From Streptomyces asiaticus (GTDB lineage: Bacteria; Actinomycetota; Actinomycetes; Streptomycetales; Streptomycetaceae): a stretch of 64,000 bases of DNA. Positions 1,609 through 44,588 of the stretch are shown piece by piece. Location of the stretch: the NCBI RefSeq assembly GCF_018138715.1, contig NZ_JAGSHX010000006.1:4030001-4094000 (forward strand), written 5' to 3'. The notes beneath the pieces are model-generated. The model was not told the origin of the DNA, searched no databases, and saw nothing but the letters and a program-made list of their open reading frames with translations. Every line of letters starts with the position of its first letter. Position 1 is the first letter of the stretch. Position numbers and translations under genes: made by a program.

Positions 1609-4600
1609 TCAGTCGAACCAGCGGGCCCGTGCCAGCTCCTCCGTACGGGTCAGATCCTCCAGCAGGGCCGCCACCTCGAACCGGCGCGCCCAGTGGCCGG
1701 CGGCCCAGGACAGACCGGCCGCGACGCCCTCGACCGTCGAGGCGTGCAGGGTGCCGTCCACATACCGCCAGTCCAGCTCGATCTCGCCCGCACCCGCGCC
1801 CGAGCCCTCGCCCTCGCCCTCGATCAGCAGTTCCTCGTGCTCGATGTACGACAGCGGGGCGCCCGGGAGGAGTTCGCGGACCGCCTCGGGCACCTCGTGC
1901 GGATCGCCCTGTGAGGTCACCCGCGCCGGGTACGCCTCGCTCAGCCGCCGCACCTGGAACAGCTCGGCCAGCTCCGCCGCCCGCGTGGGCCGTACGGGCA
2001 GCAGCGCCCGGCCGTCCGCCTCGGCCAGCGGCATCAGGTCCGGGGCGTCCGCGACCAGCGCCTCGCCCGCCTCGACCACCGTCGGCTCGCCGTCCACGAT
2101 GGCGCGCAGCTCGTCCGGCAGGGTCACCTGCTCCGGGTCCAGGTCGGCCAACTGCCCGTAGATGGCGTGCAGCTGGGCGGGGGCCACCTCGCGGTCCGGG
2201 TCGGCGAGGCGGGCCAGCAGTTCGGCGGCGCCGCCCGGCTCGTCCAGCAGCGAGGCGACGGAGGTCCGTACGCCCAGCGCCCGCAGCACCTGCTCGTCCT
2301 CGAACCCGGCCGCGTCCACCGCCTCGTACAGCCCCGCCAGCAGCGGATCGCCCCCGGCCGCGCGCAGCCCGGCGGGGCGGCGGCCGTCCAGCACCGGATG
2401 GCCGCGCAGCCACCACGCGGTGTACGAGCGCACGATCTCCGTCGTGCCGTCCGGCAGCAGCACCCGCACCGGCGCGGTCAGCGCGTCGCGCAGCGGCGGC
2501 TGGGCGAGCATGGCCAGGGCCCGCGGCCAGGCGTCGTCGTCGACCAGGTCCAGGTCGCGTACGGCCACGATCTCGGTGGCCACCGGCGGCACCGGCGTCT
2601 CCGGCAGCCGGTCCAGCACGTCCTCGCACCACACGTCGACGGCGTCCAGCACGCCGACGTCGTCCGGTTCGGTGAAATCGCCCTCGCGGGGCTCCAGTTC
2701 ATCCGGGTCCAGCACCACATCGGTGGCCCTGACCAGCGTGAACCCCGCCAGCACACCGACCGCGGCGAGCGGCTGCTCACCCCAGCGCTCGGCCAGCTCG
2801 GCGTCGCACGCGGCCAGTTCGCCCTCCCGCATCACCTGCTCGAAGGCGCTGCCGGGGAGGACCAGCTCACCGGCCGGGGCCAGCTCACCGTCCTCGTCCG
2901 GGAGCGCGAGCGCGGCCAGCCACGGCTCGTCGCCGGGCGCCAGCCGGGCCTGCTGGACCAGGCCGAGGACCGTGTCGGCCAGCGTGTCGGCGTCCAGCGC
3001 CGCGCCCAGGCCGCCCTCGCCCTCCTCCGCGAACGGGTCGTACTCGTCCTCCGCCTCCAGCGAATGCGCCACGGCGGCCCGTACCTGCGGGGTCGTCAGC
3101 ACGGCGCGGGGCGTGGCGGGGGTCGCGCCGAGCTTCTCCAGCAGCGGATGGGCGGCGTCCGGATGTGCAACTTTCAGGCCGAGGCGGGCGAGGGTGCGAT
3201 GCGTATCGCTGACCGTGGCGCCGCGCTCGGGGGGCCGCGCGGATTCGACGGTTCCGGCGGACGCGGAGATTCCGGCGGACGCGGAGATTCCGGCGGGCTC
3301 GGTGGTGACTGCGGGCTCAGCGATTCCGGCGGACTCGGCGGTTCCGATGCTGTCCAGGCCGTGCGGGCTGTCCAGGCCGTGCGAGCCGTCCAGGTCGCCG
3401 TCGGCCTCGCCCGGCAGCGGCAGCAGCACCTGCCGGGGCCCGATCGTCGTCCGGCCGTCCGCCAGCGGCACCGGCAGCCCGCTGAGCCGGTCCGGGTCGA
3501 TACCGCCCAGCGAGTCGTACAGCCGCCGCCACCAGGCCGGGGCGCGCTCCACGCCCGCGAGCCGGTCGATGAGCTCGCCCAGCGGTACCCGGGCCACGCC
3601 CAGCACCCGCAGCTCCGAGCGGCGCTCGAGACCGGCGGGCAGCAGCGTCGGGAACAGCTCGGCCAGCACCTCCACCGTCTCCGCGCCCGCGCCCTCGACG
3701 ATCTCGGCGTCCCGGGGCCGCAGCGCGTACGGCTCGCCCTCGGCGCCGCCGCGCGCCAGCACGTCGTCGTCCCAGTCGGCCGGGGCGGGCGCGGACGGGG
3801 CGGCAGCCGGCTCGTCCGCCGCGGGGCCGCCCTGGGCGGCGTCCGGGCCGAGCGCCTCCGGCGAGCCGAGCCAGCCCGCCACGGCCTCGGCCACGGCCGC
3901 GTCCTGCGTGCCGCCCACGCCCACCGCCGGTGCGGCGGCACTGGGCAGGAAGGGCACCCTCGGCAGCCGCTCCAGCACCCGCTGGCGCAACTCCCCGTCC
4001 AGCTCGCCCCGGCCCAGCTGGCCCGGGACCAGGTCGATCGAGCCGACCGAGACCGGATGCCAGTCGCGCAGCAGCGTCGCGTACGCCTCGGCCGCGCGGT
4101 CCAGCAGGAAGTCCGTGAGCGGCCCGGGGGCGGTGTGGCGGCGGGTGGGTTCCAGCGGGAAGGACGCGATCAGCAGCGCGGGCATGCCCAGCGGCTCATC
4201 GGTCGGCGTCGGGGCGTGGACCACCGGGGCGGTCGCGGGGCGCGTCGGCGCGCCCTCCGCGTCCACCGGAACCGCCCAGGTCACCGACCACACCGGGCGC
4301 AGCCGCTCCTCCACCGGGCGGTCGGCGAGCAGCTCCGGCTCCAGCCGCCCCCCGATGCTCTCGGTGCGCCAGCGCGTCGTACCGCGGGCGCCGCTGTCCT
4401 CGACGACGGTGTACGGGCCGTCCTGGCGGCGGCGCAGCGTCCGGGTGCCCTCGACGGTCTCGACCACGACCTCGGCCAGGCCGGGGAGGGTCAGCAGCAG
4501 CGCGTCGTCGATCCCGGCCAGCAGCCGCTCGGCCACGTCCCAGGCGGCGCCGTCGCGCAGCGGCAGCACCACGACGGTGTCGTAGCCCTCCGGGGCGCTC

Positions 4601-5202
4601 CCCTCGGCGGGCAGCGGCAGCCGCAGCAGCGGTACGTGGCCGTCGCGGCGGCGCAGCTCCTCGGCGAGGCCGGGGCCGGGGCCGGCGGCGGTGGCGGCGG
4701 CGGTGGCGGCGCGCTGGGTCAGCTCCCGCGCCTCGGCCAGCGACCAGCGCACCCCGCCGGTGCGGCCCACGACCGCGGGCTCGTCGCTCACCGCGAGCAC
4801 CGCCGCGAAGCCGACGCCGAACCGCCCGACCGCGCTCTCCGGCTCGTCCCGCTTGGCCGACGCCCGCAGGGTGGACAGCGACTCGACGCCCGCCGCGTCC
4901 AGCGGCGCCCCGGTGTTGGCGACGGCCAGCACGGCGGGCTCGCCGTCGGTGGCCGGCCGCAGGGTCAGCCGCAGCCGCCCGGGCACCCCGGCGCGGGCGG
5001 CGGCGTCCGCCGCGTTCTGGGCCATCTCGACGACCAGCCGGTCCCGGTGGCCGCCCAGCGCCAGGTCCTCCTCGGCGTTGGCGTCCTCCCGGAACCGGGC
5101 GGGCGACGCGGCCCAGGCGTCCAGCACGCCGCGCCGCAGCCGCGCGGTCCCGAACGGGTCCGCGTCCTCGGTCGCGCCTCGCACCATCGCCGTGCTGCTC
5201 AC
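1609..5202 (-). CDS. Sacsin N-terminal ATPase-like protein
   Basis: About 1197 residues. Near the N-terminus an N-box-like MAQNAADAA (about 60-68) and, near 130, a glycine-rich GRFGVGFAAVL segment are the Bergerat ATP-binding motifs of Hsp90/sacsin-type GHKL ATPases. The rest is a long acidic region of unknown fold typical of actinobacterial sacsin-like proteins. A Gly/Ser/Glu-rich stretch with repeated ISASAGI-like units sits around residues 630-660. The start is a GTG six bases after GGAGG, five codons before the first ATG. Function is not established; a chaperone-like or ATP-dependent scaffold role is inference from the domain only. Confidence 0.75.
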   Translation of the reverse strand: MSSTAMVRGATEDADPFGTARLRRGVLDAWAASPARFREDANAEEDLALGGHRDRLVVEMAQNAADAAARAGVPGRLRLTLRPATDGEPAVLAVANTGAPLDAAGVESLSTLRASAKRDEPESAVGRFGVGFAAVLAVSDEPAVVGRTGGVRWSLAEARELTQRAATAAATAAGPGPGLAEELRRRDGHVPLLRLPLPAEGSAPEGYDTVVVLPLRDGAAWDVAERLLAGIDDALLLTLPGLAEVVVETVEGTRTLRRRQDGPYTVVEDSGARGTTRWRTESIGGRLEPELLADRPVEERLRPVWSVTWAVPVDAEGAPTRPATAPVVHAPTPTDEPLGMPALLIASFPLEPTRRHTAPGPLTDFLLDRAAEAYATLLRDWHPVSVGSIDLVPGQLGRGELDGELRQRVLERLPRVPFLPSAAAPAVGVGGTQDAAVAEAVAGWLGSPEALGPDAAQGGPAADEPAAAPSAPAPADWDDDVLARGGAEGEPYALRPRDAEIVEGAGAETVEVLAELFPTLLPAGLERRSELRVLGVARVPLGELIDRLAGVERAPAWWRRLYDSLGGIDPDRLSGLPVPLADGRTTIGPRQVLLPLPGEADGDLDGSHGLDSPHGLDSIGTAESAGIAEPAVTTEPAGISASAGISASAGTVESARPPERGATVSDTHRTLARLGLKVAHPDAAHPLLEKLGATPATPRAVLTTPQVRAAVAHSLEAEDEYDPFAEEGEGGLGAALDADTLADTVLGLVQQARLAPGDEPWLAALALPDEDGELAPAGELVLPGSAFEQVMREGELAACDAELAERWGEQPLAAVGVLAGFTLVRATDVVLDPDELEPREGDFTEPDDVGVLDAVDVWCEDVLDRLPETPVPPVATEIVAVRDLDLVDDDAWPRALAMLAQPPLRDALTAPVRVLLPDGTTEIVRSYTAWWLRGHPVLDGRRPAGLRAAGGDPLLAGLYEAVDAAGFEDEQVLRALGVRTSVASLLDEPGGAAELLARLADPDREVAPAQLHAIYGQLADLDPEQVTLPDELRAIVDGEPTVVEAGEALVADAPDLMPLAEADGRALLPVRPTRAAELAELFQVRRLSEAYPARVTSQGDPHEVPEAVRELLPGAPLSYIEHEELLIEGEGEGSGAGAGEIELDWRYVDGTLHASTVEGVAAGLSWAAGHWARRFEVAALLEDLTRTEELARARWFD

Positions 5203-6451
5203 GTCTCGCCTCCGGAAGTTCCTGGTCGGGGTCCGTCCTGCGCCGCGGCGCCACACCGCCGAGTCCCCCGCGGTGCGGATCGCCCCACCGCGCTCGCCGT
5301 TCCCAAGCGTGCCGCGCTTGCTAGCCGCGAACGTACCTCTATCCGCCCCCAAACGACGCCCCGGGCCCCACACAACCGGATTCTCCCCCTCACCTTGGGC
5401 CCCTCGGACCCCTGGGCCGCCGGGTCCCTGCCTCGGGCACACAGGCGGAGGCGCACCCTCCGCCACCGCCGTGGCCCTGGCTGTGGCCGCCGTGACGCCT
5501 GCGGCGGGCTGTTCCCCTCCCGCCCCTTCCCACAACTGGGGCTTCGCCCCAGACCCCGGGGGTCCAGGGGCGAAGCCCCTGGTAGCGGGAAGGGGAGGGG
5601 CGGGGCGGGGAGGGGAAAGACCCACCGGTCACCACACCCCATAGGTGCCCCTGGGCGTCGCAGCCCCGGCCGTTGGGCGGCAGCCTGCGGGGAGGCCGCC
5701 CGCTGCGGGCGAACCAGGGCGGCCGGACTCACCATGGGGACCTGCCGACGACGCGGCGGACGGGCCGAAGTCGTACGACGCCGCGCCGCCAAGGCCTACG
5801 AGGGCCGGGGACGACCGGGACGCGCTGTGCAGGCCGCCGCCCGGGCGTACGGGTCCGGCCACACCCGACCGCACGTCGCCCGACCAGCCCCGGAGGCAAC
5901 GCATCCGGGGCTACGGTGGGCAGCTTGCGCTGCCCGGCGGGGTGGCAGCCGCGAGGGGCCGGGGCGCCGGCGCCGCGACGCGCTGGTACGCGCGCCTCCG
6001 CCGGGGCGAGACTTCGCGGCCGCCGTCGCGGCGACCGTGCGCCGGGCGGCGGCCCCGGGGCCGTCGTTCCGCAGTAGCGGGGCCGGGGCCGTCGTTCCGT
6101 AGCAGCCCGGCCGGGGCCGTCGTTCCGTAGCAGCCCGGCCGGGGCCGTCGCTCCGTAGCAGCCCGGCCGGGGCCGTCGTTCTGTAGCAGCTCGGCCGGGG
6201 CCGTCGTTGTGGCGGGCCAGGGGCGGCATTCCCCAGCAGCCGGGCCGGGGCCGTCATTCCGCAGCAGCGGGACCGGGGCCGTCGCTCCGCAGCAGCCCGG
6301 CCGGGGCCGTCGTTCCGCAGCAGCCCGGCCGGGGCCGTCGCTCCGTTGCAGCCTCGCCCCGGCCCGTTCCGTTGTGGCGAGCCAGGGGCGGCATCCCCCA
6401 GCAGCCGGGCCGGGAGCGGCGCGGGGCGGGCCTGGCCGGGCCCCGGGTTCC
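5203..6451. repeat. Long gene-free region: dispersed repeat plus 28-bp minisatellite
   Basis: I see no credible gene in these 1.25 kb. Around 5525-5620 is a G/C-rich element (ccccgggggtccaggggcg type) of the dispersed kind common in Streptomyces intergenic DNA. From 6061 to about 6362 there are ten copies of a 28-bp unit of the form ccgtcgttccgtagcagccc plus gg-rich filler. Copies start at 6061, 6089, 6117, 6145, 6173 and 6201, then after a 50-bp gap at 6251, 6279, 6307 and 6335. The 22 bp interrupting block (around 6210-6240) recurs at about 6373-6410. The period is not a multiple of three, which argues against coding. Confidence 0.8.
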
Positions 6452-30165: not shown

Positions 30166-30390
30166 TCAGACCTCAGGGAACTCACCGCGTATGAGAGCGG
30201 ACACGAACGACGACCAGCCCTCCGCGGGGAAAGTCAGCGTCGGTCCGTGCGGGTTCTTGGAGTCGCGGACCGGGATGGTGTCGTGGGTCTGGGCGAAGGT
30301 GCGGGAGAACTCGACGCACTGGCCGCCGCTGCCGTCGCTGTAAGAAGACCTGTCCCATTGGGCAGCCGTGAGATCCAAGTCGGCGCTCAT
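30166..30390 (-). CDS. DUF397 protein
   Basis: 74 residues, the DUF397 family: LDLTAAQWDRSSYSDGSGGQ, VEFSRTF, IPVRDSKNPHGPTLTF and W..FVSAL. In Streptomyces these small proteins are encoded directly after an XRE regulator with a DUF5753 domain and act with it as a regulatory pair (in the BldB/AbaA-like and WhiJ systems); direct biochemical data are few. Its ATG overlaps the XRE stop (ATGA), implying coupled expression. Confidence 0.88.
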   Translation of the reverse strand: MSADLDLTAAQWDRSSYSDGSGGQCVEFSRTFAQTHDTIPVRDSKNPHGPTLTFPAEGWSSFVSALIRGEFPEV

Positions 30391-31217
30391 TCGCGGTACT
30401 CCTTCGACACGGTCTTGATCAGGCTCAGTGATCGATCCGGGGACAGCGCATGCGCCCTGAGCAGATCATAGTCATCCAGGGCACTGGCGACCGTCCGTGC
30501 GGAGTCGTGCATCCTGCCGCCCACCCGGGTCTCGGTGTAAAGCACCGTGGGGGCATCCGTGAAGCGCAACAAGGTGAAGGGCTTCGCGTGTGCGGCGGGA
30601 GCTCCTGCCGAGAACGGCATGACCTGAAGCTTGACGTGTGGTGACTCCGCCGCCGTCAACAGGTACTCAAGCTGCCCGGTCATGACGTCGGCGCCGCCAA
30701 CCACCGTTCGCAGGCACGCTTCGTGCAGGATGACCCAGAGGAGCGGCGGAGCCTCCAGCTCGAATACCGCGCGTCGGCTCAGACGTGCCGCGACCTTGCC
30801 CTCGATCACCTCGGCTTCTTCCCGCGGATGGGATGACCGGAAGATGGCCCCTGCGTAGTCCTTCGTCTGAAGGATGCCGATCACGAGGTTCGCCGAATAA
30901 TCGAGCACCCGTGACGCCTTGCGTTCCAGGTTGAGATACGGGGTGAACCACGAGGGATGGTCGCCCTCATCGATCCGCCGAAGCATGCCCGCGAACAACT
31001 CTCCCGTGCCGAACGCGATATCGCAGCCCTTCGCGAACTTGTCGCTGGGTCTGGGCAGAAGCTTCCCGGCCTCCACCCTGCTGACGTACGCCTCCGAGTA
31101 GCCGGCCGCCTGGCCCAGGCGCTTCTGCGTGAGCTTGCGGGCGAGACGGACCTGTTTGACGTCACGACCGAAGCGCTGGAGCGGGTTCAAGTGAGCTGGT
31201 GGGGTGGTCTCGTCCAA
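30387..31217 (-). CDS. XRE-family regulator with DUF5753 domain
   Basis: 276 residues. An N-terminal helix-turn-helix (RLARKLTQKRLGQAAGYSEA ... YVSRVEAGKLLP at about 24-55) is followed by the DUF5753 C-terminal domain (YLNLERKASRVLDYSANLVI and LQTKDYA, then LLWVILHEACLRTVVGG). It is a WhiJ-like regulator paired with the DUF397 gene. The start is a TTG (31217) with AGAGG about eight bases upstream. The divergent small gene at 31390, now broken by an intron, is a typical companion of such pairs. Confidence 0.88.
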   Translation of the reverse strand: MDETTPPAHLNPLQRFGRDVKQVRLARKLTQKRLGQAAGYSEAYVSRVEAGKLLPRPSDKFAKGCDIAFGTGELFAGMLRRIDEGDHPSWFTPYLNLERKASRVLDYSANLVIGILQTKDYAGAIFRSSHPREEAEVIEGKVAARLSRRAVFELEAPPLLWVILHEACLRTVVGGADVMTGQLEYLLTAAESPHVKLQVMPFSAGAPAAHAKPFTLLRFTDAPTVLYTETRVGGRMHDSARTVASALDDYDLLRAHALSPDRSLSLIKTVSKEYRE

Positions 31218-31433
31218 TGCTGTGACCTCTCGCTATGTGATCAGGGCCAGCATCGCGGCAGGTCACGGACTTGCGCGCAGCCGTTCAATGCGTCTCATTC
31301 TCTCGGCATCCGCGTTACCCGCGTGACCAATTGACTACACGCGGTGCCCATCCTGGCGTCGCCGGAAACAGCTGAGTGGAGCTGATGACATGAACGGTCT
31401 ACGCCTCTTGCCATGGTCCAGCCCGGAGGGGTC

Positions 31434-31504
31434 GAGTAGCCGAGGGGAGTCGCACCCCTCGGCTCTCACGGAACCGTGCGTAACAGTCTCCCGTTACACG
31501 GCTC
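31434..31504 (-). ncRNA. Group II intron domains V and VI
   Basis: Domain V is 31471-31504. An 8-bp lower helix (GAGCCGUG with CACGGUUC), a 2-nt CG bulge and a 6-bp upper helix closed by a GAGA tetraloop give the standard 34 nt. Domain VI follows, with arms GAG-CCGAGGGG and CCCCUCGG-CUA-CUC, the bulged A being the likely branch point. These are the catalytic core and branching domains. Confidence 0.85.
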
Positions 31505-31519
31505 TTATCGTTCTGATCG

Positions 31520-32779
31520 TCAGGTCGATACGGCCACGGTGGTGCAGTGCCAGTGCGCGAACATTCGGGGGTATCGCCGGGCGATCTCCTGCATCTTCGC
31601 GATGGCTGTCCGCCGGGCCGAGAGCCGTTTGTATTTCTTGCGGATCCAGCGCACCAGGTAGGCGTTGATGCGCATCAAGAGCGGATACATCTCCCAGGGC
31701 CGGAAACGGCCGTAGTAGTTGATCCAGCCCGCGACGACGGGGTTCATCCGACGTGCGAGCTCGGCGAAGGACAGGTCGGAGCGACGATGCAGGCGCCAGG
31801 AACGGACCTCGCGGCTCATCTTCTTCAGGGCCTCTTTACTGACCGCCGGTTCGAACGACAGGAACTGACTGCCATGTCGGTCCCGGTTGCGTCTGGCGCG
31901 GAAGGTGTACCCCAGGAACGTGAACGCGGTGTCCTCGAAGGCGCGTTTGCGTTTGCCGTCCTTGCAGTACACGATCCGGGTCTTGGCCGGATGCAGTCGC
32001 AGTCCAACCTCGGCCATCCTGTCCGTGAGCGCGGCCAGCACGTGGCGGGCCTGGCGCTCGGAGACGCAGTGCAGCACCGCGTCATCCGCATACCGCTCGA
32101 ACCAGACGGCCGGGAACTCCCGTGCCATCCAGGTGTCGAACGCGTAGTGCAGGAACAGGTTTGCCAGCACGGGAGATACCGGGGCTCCTTGCGGGGTTCC
32201 CCTCTCCCGCTCCAGCAGGGATCCGTCGGGCATGACGAGCGGGGCACCGAGCCACCGCCGCACGTACAACTTCACCCAGACGGCGTCGGTGTGCGCTTCC
32301 ACCGCCTTGACCAGCAGGTCCCAGGGCACGCTGTCGAAGAACCTGGCGATGTCGAGTTCCACCACCCAGTCCCGCTTCCAGCAGCGTTTCCGGCACCTTT
32401 CCACTGCATCCAAGGCAGACCGTCCGGGCCGGTATCCGAAACTGTCCGGGTGGAAAACGGGCTCCACCCTACGCATCAGATGCCGGGCCACCACGGTCTG
32501 TGCCACCCGGTCGGCGACAGCGGGAATGCCGAGCATCCTCGTGCCACCGCCGTGCGGTTTGGGAATAGCCACCGCCCGCACCGGAGGCGGAAAGTACGAG
32601 CCCGACGACATCCGGTTCCAGATCTTGTACAGATTGTTCTTCAGACCCTTTTCGAAGTCATCGATTCCCTGCCCATCCACCCCCGGCGCACCCTTATTCG
32701 CTCTGACTTCCTCCCACGCCTCCTTGACTTCCCACTTCGAAATTTCAAATGGCTTGACCTGTGACTTCAACTGGCCCAT
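31520..32779 (-). CDS. Group II intron reverse transcriptase/maturase
   Basis: 419 residues. Reverse-transcriptase motifs are present: AIPKPHGGGTRMLGIPAVAD, FGYRPGRSALDAV, ELDIARFFDSVPWD, GTPQGAPVSPVLANLFLH and the catalytic YADD in FERYADDAVLHC near 235. The maturase (X) domain has MNPVVAGWINYYGRFRPW. No HNH/endonuclease domain follows, so mobility would rely on reverse splicing without second-strand cleavage by the protein. ATG 32779 has GGAGGAG upstream. The gene looks intact, so the intron may still be active. Confidence 0.92.
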   Translation of the reverse strand: MGQLKSQVKPFEISKWEVKEAWEEVRANKGAPGVDGQGIDDFEKGLKNNLYKIWNRMSSGSYFPPPVRAVAIPKPHGGGTRMLGIPAVADRVAQTVVARHLMRRVEPVFHPDSFGYRPGRSALDAVERCRKRCWKRDWVVELDIARFFDSVPWDLLVKAVEAHTDAVWVKLYVRRWLGAPLVMPDGSLLERERGTPQGAPVSPVLANLFLHYAFDTWMAREFPAVWFERYADDAVLHCVSERQARHVLAALTDRMAEVGLRLHPAKTRIVYCKDGKRKRAFEDTAFTFLGYTFRARRNRDRHGSQFLSFEPAVSKEALKKMSREVRSWRLHRRSDLSFAELARRMNPVVAGWINYYGRFRPWEMYPLLMRINAYLVRWIRKKYKRLSARRTAIAKMQEIARRYPRMFAHWHCTTVAVST

Positions 32780-33362
32780 CGAACTCCTCCCGGAGATCCT
32801 CCGGTTGATGCGATCAACACAGTCACGAACGACCCGGCCCCTTCGCTCCACCCCCGCTACAGGGGCTTCACCACTACTACGAGCCGGTCCGCCGGCACGC
32901 CCCGCCTCGGTACTCGACCCCTCACAGTTTCTGCTGCTTGGGGCACTCCCTCTCACCCGCCAAGGCACGGCGGGCAGTATCGAGGCGTGCCTTCTCCTGT
33001 TCCATGCGGAAGCCGCAGACCGGATTCACGTCGCCTCCATGCCGGACATCGCCTGGCCAATAGACGGGCACCCGCCAGACCCATCCCGGAGTTGGCTTTA
33101 AACCCCGGTTTTGATGTCGTCTTGTAGCATTTCGACACGTCAGCAGCGATTCACTTGCGTTCGTCTTCCCGGTCCCTACCTGACGCCTCTCGGGCGCCTT
33201 TTCCTCATCGCTCACCACAACGGTCTTCAGCCAATGCAGCATGAGGCGGTTTGAAGCCTCCCCCCGCAGGGCGACTCCGAAGGGCCAAAACCTTCATCTC
33301 CCGCACAGCACCACTTCCAGAAGCTGCCCTACAACCAACTCCCTTTCATGTTCAGGACACAC
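32780..33362 (-). other. 5' structural part of the group II intron (domains I-IV)
   Basis: These 580 bases carry no other gene. They correspond to the ribozyme domains before the maturase. A GAACGCAAGTGAAT-like segment (around 33150) resembles the conserved domain I core, and the candidate EBS1 is at 33094-33099. Confidence 0.7.
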
Positions 33363-33632
33363 AAAGCCCTGCTATCTGGCGACGGACAACGGCAACAGCC
33401 GATTGAGCCGGAAGGCAGACGAGGTCGAGGCTCTCCAACTCGCCATGGGCGTCCAACTGCTCGCCCATGCCCGCGCTCTGCTCGACGAGGACAAGGCGAC
33501 AAGTGGTGGACTCCGCTTTCTGGCCCGGCGGCTGGTTGAGGCGCTGACAGACGCATTGCGCGTCGTCGAGAGCAGGGGTGGACGGCTCCTTGTCCGTGGC
33601 GAGCAGGGCGCCGACGAGCGGAACCGAGCCGA

Positions 33633-35099
33633 TCAGCGACGGTAGTCATGGGGTCGGTTGGTGTACCTGTGGCCGGTGGGGGCGGTCCAGGTGGTGGTGC
33701 CGGTTCGGGAGTCGCGCTTCACCGCCCAGCCGGGGTGGTGGGTCTTCATCCGGTGGTGGCGTCTGCACAGAGCCCCGAGGTTCTCCGGGACCGTCTGGCC
33801 GCCCGCCGCCCGGTCGTGGTGGTTGAACGGCTCGACATGGTCCAGGTCGCAACGGTGGGCGGGCATGCGGCAGGTCGGGAAGGTGCAGTAGGCGTCGCGG
33901 GCGATGACATGCCGCTCGGTTTCGGCGGTGGGTTTGTAGGTGGTGGGGTCGGTCTTGATCAGCATCCCGGTCTTCGGCTCGATGATCAGGCGGTGCCAGA
34001 CCGTGCCCTTGGCGAAGGCGATCCTTCGGGCCTGCCCTGCGGTGATCGGGCCGTAGCCCTTGAGCTGGGCCGGGTCGTCGCTGTCCCCCATCAGGACGTC
34101 CAAGGGGACGGTGACCTGGACGACTGCCGCCGAGCGGCCACCTGTGGTCGGCCCACTTGTGATCGGACCACTTGTGATCGGACCGCCCAGGCCCGACCTG
34201 CCCGGGGCCGGCCTGCTCGGGGCCGACCCGCTCGGGGTTGGCTCGCCCAGGACCGGTTCACCTGAAGCCCGCACACCTGAAGTCGCCACACCCGGGTCGG
34301 TGCGGTTGAGCACCAGGTCGACCAGGGCGTCCACCCGCTTCTGCTCCAGGGTGCGGCCCTCGTCGGGCAGGGTGGCGGCGTGGGCGTCGACGGCGGCGTT
34401 CATGGCCGCGGCCTGCTCGGCCGGGAGGGTGGCGCCCCAGAGCGCCATGCCGTCGTCCTTCGGATAGTGGACCATCTGCCGCTCGCGCTTACGGGCCTGG
34501 TGGCGCTGCTCGGCGCCGTGCGGATCGGCTCGTAGGATCTCGCGGGCCAGAGCGCGGCGGGTCTGGCCGGTGGCCATGCCTGGCATCTTCTCCACCAAGG
34601 CGGCCTCGACCTGTCCCGCCACCTCGGGGTCCAGGACTGCGCATGCCTCGGTGACGGCTACTGCCTGCATGTAGCAGATCTCTCCGCGCTCCAGCATCCC
34701 CAGCGTGGTGGGGTAGTGCCGGTCGAGCTCGCGGGCTACCTCCAGACGCTTTGCGGCCGTCGTGCCGGACAGCTTCAGCGCACAGGCCACTTCCTCGCAG
34801 GTGAAGTTCCAGGCGGCCTCCGCGTCGCGATCCCGTACGGCCGCCGGTAGCTCCGCCTCGGCGTCCGCTTCCAACGCGGCCAGGATCTGGGCCTGGTGTG
34901 CCTGGATCCACCCCGTATGACGCTCCAGGGCTTTTAGTGCGTCGATCCGGCCAGTGCGGGACAGCTTCTCCGCGTCCAGGACCGGCAGTACGGCCGCGGT
35001 CTCCGGCCCCGGAGCCGCTGTGGCCAGATACGCGGCCCATTCGTCCGGCGTGCCCGGGCCGTTCAGTTCGCTGGTCGTCTCCTCCGTCACGTCGATCAC
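33633..35099 (-). CDS. DUF222/13E12-type HNH endonuclease protein
   Basis: 488 residues. The N-terminal DUF222 (13E12-repeat) region includes LDAEKLSRTGRIDALKALER and AAKRLEVARELDRHYPTTL. A C-terminal HNH nuclease motif reads CDLDHVEPFNHHDRA ... NLGALCRRHHRMKTH near residues 425-455. Such proteins are common in actinobacterial accessory DNA; their biological role is unknown. A SGPITSGPTTSG-type linker (about 300-335) separates the two parts. GTG 35099 is preceded by GAGGAG at about ten bases; ATG 35117 upstream is the alternative. Confidence 0.82.
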   Translation of the reverse strand: MIDVTEETTSELNGPGTPDEWAAYLATAAPGPETAAVLPVLDAEKLSRTGRIDALKALERHTGWIQAHQAQILAALEADAEAELPAAVRDRDAEAAWNFTCEEVACALKLSGTTAAKRLEVARELDRHYPTTLGMLERGEICYMQAVAVTEACAVLDPEVAGQVEAALVEKMPGMATGQTRRALAREILRADPHGAEQRHQARKRERQMVHYPKDDGMALWGATLPAEQAAAMNAAVDAHAATLPDEGRTLEQKRVDALVDLVLNRTDPGVATSGVRASGEPVLGEPTPSGSAPSRPAPGRSGLGGPITSGPITSGPTTGGRSAAVVQVTVPLDVLMGDSDDPAQLKGYGPITAGQARRIAFAKGTVWHRLIIEPKTGMLIKTDPTTYKPTAETERHVIARDAYCTFPTCRMPAHRCDLDHVEPFNHHDRAAGGQTVPENLGALCRRHHRMKTHHPGWAVKRDSRTGTTTWTAPTGHRYTNRPHDYRR

Positions 35100-35278
35100 C
35101 CCCCGTGATCTCCTCAACCCGCCTCCCCCAGCGGGTTCACATCTCCATCCTTCCTCACTCAGCGTGACGACACCAGGTCACAACCGCCAGTCCACACCAT
35201 CGAGTGAACGTTCGAGAAGCGCACACCCCGATGTTCCGCGCAGGAATGCCGACCTCGTTCCACGACGTTGAGCCTGGC

Positions 35279-44238: not shown

Positions 44239-44588
44239 GGATGGCGAGGCCCTTTCTCCTCATCTTCCTCGCGACGCATTTCGCCACGAGACGGAATTGG
44301 CACCTTCCCGAGCTGGGAGCCTCGCTGCGGAATGCGAGATCAGCTGGAGGGTTGCCGGGGCTTCAACGGGCCGTTCCCTCTGCCCCTCTGGATGAGCGGT
44401 ATGGCACCGGGCGGACCCGGGGCGTTTGTCAGCACCAGCGTCGTCAGTACGTCGGTAAACGTCGAGGTCGACCCCGACATACGACGGCCATGTGCGTTGT
44501 TCAAGACTGTAACCGAAGGCCCGGATGGTTGAGGTAGCCGTCCGATGCGCGAGATGGGTCACAGCGACCACAACAGGGAGACACACAG
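44239..44588. other. Leader/promoter region between thrC and the GpgS-like gene
   Basis: No gene. The part 44288-44402 is the SAM-I riboswitch of thrC (minus strand). The remainder up to 44588 must hold the two divergent promoters; a ribosome site GGGAGA precedes the plus-strand GTG. Confidence 0.6.
44288..44402 (-). promoter_or_regulatory. SAM-I (S-box) riboswitch
   Basis: On the minus strand it reads CTCATCCAGAGGGGCAGAGG, then GAACGGCCCGTTGAAGCCCC, GGCAACC and, after a variable arm, GGTGCCAATTCC. These are the S-box landmarks in order: CAGAG, GAGGGAxxGGCCC, GAAxCCCxGGCAACC, GGTGCxAATTCC. It ends about 50 nt before the thrC start, consistent with control of translation or early termination by SAM. 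Confidence 0.9.

Follow-up and report, generated by a model that had tools for sequence, protein, structure and literature searches.

Results

A complete group II intron lies antisense within a small gene

The window analysed here, a stretch of 64,000 nucleotides (nt) of Streptomyces asiaticus DNA (contig NZ_JAGSHX010000006.1, positions 4,030,001 to 4,094,000), contains a complete group II intron on the minus strand that interrupts a small gene on the plus strand. In the 11.9-Mb source genome the intron occupies C6:4,061,431-4,063,362 (minus). It carries an intron-encoded protein (IEP) with reverse transcriptase (RT) and maturase domains, and exon-binding sites (EBS; EBS1 and probably EBS2) that pair with intron-binding sites (IBS) at the end of the 5' exon. 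The parts are as follows, in window coordinates.

31431..33362, minus strand: group II intron, complete, 1932 nt (5' end GUGUG at 33362, 3' end GAC at 31431)
33362, minus strand: first intron nucleotide, G1
31432, minus strand: penultimate intron nucleotide, A(-2)
31431..31506, minus strand: domains V and VI (Rfam RF00029), branch-site A at 31437
33178..33295, minus strand: group-II-D1D4-2 segment (Rfam RF01999)
31520..32779, minus strand: IEP of 419 amino acids (aa), RVT_1 and GIIM with a YADD motif, start chosen by alignment
33094..33099, minus strand: EBS1 AAAGCC, intron positions 264-269
33363..33368, minus strand: IBS1 GGCTTT, end of the 5' exon
33124..33129, minus strand: probable EBS2 TGCTAC, intron positions 234-239, 5/6 pairs with IBS2 (moderate)
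33370..33375, minus strand: probable IBS2 ATAGCA
31390..31430, plus strand: N-terminal part of the small gene, 13 codons and 2 nt
33363..33645, plus strand: C-terminal part of the small gene, with its stop codon

A preliminary description of this DNA had proposed an intron with ends GTGTG and GAC and a canonical domain V, and the Rfam models, the RT/maturase and the fold of domains V and VI all agree with it. RF01999 matches 33295-33178 (minus, 103.1 bits) and RF00029 matches 31506-31431 (minus, 56.8 bits), its last base falling exactly on 31431; domains V and VI fold with -45.1 kcal/mol (z -5.5), and the single bulged A of domain VI is the seventh base from the 3' end, the branch position. 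The ends GUGUG...AC conform to the group II consensus of 5' GUGYG and 3' AY, relatives of full length have their termini at matching intron positions, and the empty sites described below fit the same boundaries. An alternative 5' end two bases further in (GUGUCC, with GT then exonic) was rejected because EBS1 pairs with the bases immediately before GUGUG and does not pair with the GT-extended exon. The intron does not resemble class C (IIC), since its 5' end reads GUGUGUCCUGAACAUG and it lies 41 nt inside a coding frame, whereas class C introns have a GUNYGCCNRGCAUGG 5' end and insert after terminators (PMC4028801).

The IEP passes the TIGR04416 model (394.9 bits, cut-off 300), and the GsI-IIC RT is, by sequence, its nearest relative of known structure. 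Above cut-off it matches only RVT_1, GIIM, TIGR04416 and RdRP_1, which overlaps RVT_1, and among these matches there is no endonuclease (HNH/En) domain. A longer open reading frame (ORF) for the IEP, from GTG 32968, is also present. The same genome contains two more group II-like RT genes (G000:C6:9970056-9971243 and 7555644-7556831), with 641-codon frames and 37% identity to the query.

EBS1 AAAGCC and IBS1 GGCUUU form six of six pairs, and the pairing proposed in the preliminary description is reinforced by the way EBS1 tracks its own target over 64 loci, the window included: six of six standard pairs form in 51/64 and at least five in 62/64, compared with 5.4% and 35%, respectively, of 3960 mismatched combinations in a cross-paired control. 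There are 56 distinct EBS1/target combinations among the 64 loci, and most copies therefore have an individual target site and an EBS1 that fits it. The signal for EBS2/IBS2 is moderate in the best fixed registers (3.5-3.6 vs 2.4-2.7 pairs of six), and a free search was uninformative (six of six in 19/64 loci vs 13.6% of cross pairs). In one locus, L030, the profile end is unpaired with EBS1 and, judged by eye, would pair if the intron began two bases earlier.

Could the element be a fossil that has lost the ability to splice or move? The intron is single-copy in its genome, and in favor of a fossil there is no second near-identical copy, only a 67%-identical relative on the 210-kb contig C2, in which the RT frame stays open for just 333 codons. 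However, domain V, the branch A and EBS1 are intact, and the IEP is open over 419 aa, retains YADD and can be aligned over its full length with 12 relatives (60-84% identity). A fossil is therefore unlikely.

The interrupted gene has exact empty sites

Removal of 31431-33362 joins exon pieces of 41 and 283 nt into a frame of 107 codons plus stop, and excision thus restores the frame as had been claimed. At the empty sites L034 and L035 both flanks align to the junction with zero gap; the insertion was therefore precise. The nearest ortholog, L034, has XRE and DUF397 genes on its left flank in the same placement as the window and, by eye from the DNA, a DUF222/HNH region on its right. The 3' part of the gene has no Pfam or NCBIfam family above cut-off. 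Used alone, it matches 205 of the 295 genomes of genus Streptomyces and finds 68 homologues, for which every organism name shown is Streptomyces. The conserved start and the uninterrupted homologues aligning across the junction, both anticipated in the preliminary description, were found: the N-terminal pattern occurs in its strict form in 58 of the 68, and of the other ten, six have LLPW, a diverged stretch and then YL, and four (P0001, P0022, P0036 and P0056) are without LLPW. P0001 is a near-identical homologue that begins MVQPGGKPCYL, implying one base fewer at the window insertion site, and its record suggests either an empty site with a frameshift or a different start call.

With the intron on the minus strand and the gene on the plus strand, the antisense arrangement stands. 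The insert would not be removable from the gene's own transcript, so the gene is presumably broken. It is rather improbable that the interrupted gene still works, for example by initiating within the 3' part: downstream of the insertion 93 codons are open and 83% identical to the L034 ortholog, and P0022, P0036 and P0056 do without the N-terminal segment, but this LLPW-containing segment is kept in 64 of the 68 homologues, 58 of them in the strict form.

The orientation fits the direction of the replication fork

Why does the intron lie antisense to the gene? The dnaA gene is at C6:4,627,053 and the intron is to its left on the minus strand, so that the intron sense strand runs with the leftward fork and the intron lies in the lagging-strand template. 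Lying left of the origin on the plus strand, the small gene is head-on to the fork, and an intron laid down with the fork is therefore antisense to it. The wider sample consists of 27 long copies that share a contig with dnaA, copies on dnaA-less contigs being left unused; dnaA went without a match in one of the 18 genomes of one scan, and for the locus-derived genomes the contig was checked through its length in three and judged by the size of the genome in three. Under a linear chromosome model 23/27 long copies are oriented with the fork and under a circular model 26/27. All four linear-model misses are in Kibdelosporangium and Haloechinothrix and the single circular-model miss is in a Streptomyces; the Streptomyces copies alone are 19/19 with the fork under the linear model. 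If topology is assigned by genus, Streptomyces being presumed linear and Kibdelosporangium and Haloechinothrix presumed circular, all 27 run with the fork. In a control, 22/44 DUF397 genes on the chromosome of this genome do so. Agreement of insertion sense with fork direction, which here presumes those topologies, is the mark of lagging-strand introns whose IEP lacks En (En-less introns), and lagging-strand bias has been reported for many IEP types (PMC8919778) and for RmInt1 (PMC8914252).

A coin toss, independent of replication, is very improbable as the source of the orientation. Bias cannot be shown from one insertion, and gene-sense calling by codon-position GC, to which we give little weight, left 59/67 loci uncalled, the window among them, and placed only eight inside an ORF (6 antisense, 2 sense). 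Against this stand the long copies, of which 23 to 27 of 27 follow the fork under one topology model or another, compared with half of the control genes, and the bias of En-less introns already published in the two papers just cited. The antisense direction was most likely set by the fork.

Probable covariation of the first and penultimate nucleotides among relatives

Some close relatives start UUGUG or UUGCG and end GGC in place of GUGUG...GAC, and in these U1 relatives EBS1 pairs with the bases right before that U, in an unchanged register. Among 76 non-duplicate introns the first/penultimate states are G/A in 53, U/G in 13, G/C in 8, and U/A and G/G in one each. Two further genome scans and a viral scan brought the set to 83 introns distinct in sequence or flanks, with related copies of one genome counted apart, and the states were G/A 56, U/G 14, G/C 11, U/A 1 and G/G 1; IMG/VR contributed only five relatives, of which one (L154) entered this set. 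The U/G state requires eight changes on a tree of 82 IEP rows, at least six of them forced by well-supported branches; the long branches L216, L154 and L213 make some placements unsure. The window intron, itself G/A, falls within a clade that mixes G/A and U/G. In six independent pairs differing at the first base, the penultimate base changed likewise in five or six; a change the opposite way turned up in only one of 200 random pairings. With six pairs only, the sign test is borderline (median p 0.06, range 0.03-0.22).

Empty sites help to fix the ends of the U1 introns. For L006 an uninterrupted target occurs in its own genome (L199: GACCAGGTC^GAACAG), and a second genome has one of 92% identity (L180); for L004 the empty sites L160 and L161 align with zero gap. 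The zero-gap candidates for these two introns are L160, L161, L180 and L182, and the more distant ones have gaps of 12 (L162, L163), 3 (L164, L183) and -3 (L181). The L006 and L004 empty sites alone leave the junction ambiguous by one base, since the last base is C in the exon as well as in the intron; the ends of L014, L070 and L077 would be free of such slide.

One intron, L087 (G1...G), is an exception that contradicts the two-state pairing. The profile end of L085 is U1...A(-2), and with EBS1 in its normal position pairing would be complete if the exon ended one base further upstream; this intron probably begins with G, followed by UUGUG, an after-the-fact reading, and was kept as U/A in the counts. 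Introns of the G/C group end ACC or GCC (for example L022, L024, L091, L136, L139, L141, L208, L211 and L213), like the CC end of RmInt1. If the true end of this group (11/83) is one base earlier, as it may be, its penultimate base would be A.

It is likely that G1...A(-2) and U1...G(-2) are an interchangeable, co-evolving pair in this actinobacterial family, switched at least six times, and that they constitute a natural covariation for the contact between the first and penultimate nucleotides; the rule would extend to the UUGCG introns scattered among fungi and other bacteria. Chanfreau and Jacquier reportedly demonstrated that contact with mutants of a yeast intron. It is important for the second splicing step and is credited to their work of 1993 (PMC3669008, PMC4238363). 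In the literature searched we found no statement of a natural U1/G(-2) covariation; the 1993 paper, outside that search, may mention it.

Neighborhood and targets of other copies

Three genes next to the interrupted gene, and a riboswitch further away, complete the features of the window.

30387..31217, minus strand: XRE regulator with HTH_31 and DUF5753, divergent from the small gene
30166..30390, minus strand: DUF397 protein
33633..35117, minus strand: DUF222 protein with an HNH match below cut-off, tail to tail with the interrupted gene and overlapping its end
44257..44398, minus strand: SAM riboswitch (Rfam RF00162, 80.2 bits)

The preliminary description had raised a preference of such introns for developmental-regulator loci with XRE and DUF397 genes, and this was not supported. 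A tblastn search gave no XRE, DUF397 or target-gene match near the intron in any of 109 other intron loci (flanks of about 1.5-4 kb or less; a few loci duplicate one another). Of 33 loci of the small gene, 8 have the XRE-DUF397 pair as neighbors, and two of the three paralogues examined in this genome are among these 8; the 33 include the window's own locus, whose flank ends inside the intron. Since the pair is found at intron-free copies of the gene and near none of the other introns, the neighborhood goes with the gene family and not with the intron. That the intron was drawn to developmental-regulator loci, with a regulatory role there, is hardly credible: the interrupted gene does start 172 nt from the XRE gene, with DUF397 behind it, but the 109 other loci, the diversity of targets (56 combinations in 64 loci), the intron-free copies accompanied by the pair and the 48 DUF397 matches in this genome, which make such a neighborhood anything but rare, all speak against it.

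Other copies have targets of several kinds. In Kibdelosporangium banguiense, L078 and L079 (in each, the intron spans about 3420-5339) are apparently in sense inside tRNA genes, just past the T arm, with GGTTCGAA..CCTGG before the intron and, by eye, an acceptor-like strand after it; ARAGORN did not call the split tRNA genes. In L019, L020, L031 and L092 the exon ends CTGAAAAAAG, right after an A6G run, apparently in sense in an IS3-type transposase-like gene (IS, insertion sequence); we take the run to be the programmed frameshift motif of the transposase. The Haloechinothrix copies L125, L126 and L128 share the target GAAGTTGATC(A/G)AC, which has a palindrome inside.

Discussion

The window intron is an ordinary kind of event in an En-less actinobacterial group II intron family. 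Very probably, an intact-looking intron of this family reverse-spliced into the single-stranded lagging-strand template at a target site read by pairing with IBS1, and probably also IBS2, and was copied by its own RT with the nascent lagging strand as primer. The small gene being transcribed towards the origin, and hence head-on, a fork-directed intron would necessarily come to lie antisense in it and break it. Judging from its sequence, the element could splice if transcribed from its own strand. This explanation is built on observed anatomy, ends, empty site, EBS1 covariation and orientation pattern.

Several points weigh against it. Reverse splicing, priming, loss of gene function and present activity are steps that we infer from the DNA, and the support for EBS2 is moderate. 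The genus-wise topologies behind the 27/27 are assumed. The 27 rows are partly dependent: G254 has two copies, which may stem from a single insertion that was duplicated, and several genomes fill two to four rows. Two of the long copies, G289 and L129, are interrupted or have no recognised 5' end. Intron fragments run with the fork in 8/9 cases under the linear model and 7/9 under the circular model, the remaining one or two being opposite.

As a presumed natural knock-out the insertion is clean, its empty site being exact, and its direction fits a simple rule: an intron that follows the replication fork is antisense in head-on genes. The 56 distinct EBS1/target combinations are a ready retargeting data set for high-GC actinobacteria, and no paper titled on Streptomyces group II introns was found among the titles searched. 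If the covariation is true, U1 implies G(-2), which would unify the "unusual" UUGCG...G-Y introns reported singly. The U1...G(-2) state would also offer a natural double mutant of the second-step splicing contact and a better boundary profile for group II intron annotation.

How does this family compare with known systems? RmInt1 of Sinorhizobium meliloti is a class D intron. Like the window intron, it has an RT and maturase without En, and it prefers the lagging-strand template (PMC8914252). It differs in its CC end and in having an IS as its natural target, whereas the introns here mostly end AC or GC (67/76) and have many different EBS1/target pairs. The En-less class E/F introns and new varieties described by Toro and Martinez-Abarca in 2013 (PMC3552965) share the lack of En, a likeness by description, and Actinobacteria account for 16 of 50 ORFs in the class F-related set of that paper. 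UUGCG starts are not new, Michel et al. 1989 being cited for them (PMC8208691, PMC12308204), and 379 plant sequences are reported to have a UUGCG start (PMC6867995). Single cases from other lineages are UHB.I2 from a hypersaline study (UUGCG...GU; PMC7923331), Ceratocystis SPAM3 (UUGCG...GC; PMC8208691) and Ophiostoma rnl-576 (UUGCG...GGU; PMC12308204), which are termed different, unusual, rare or not typical, with no pairing rule stated in the available parts of these papers. These three introns share a first U and a penultimate G with 14 of the 83 introns described here; the window intron itself is G...A.

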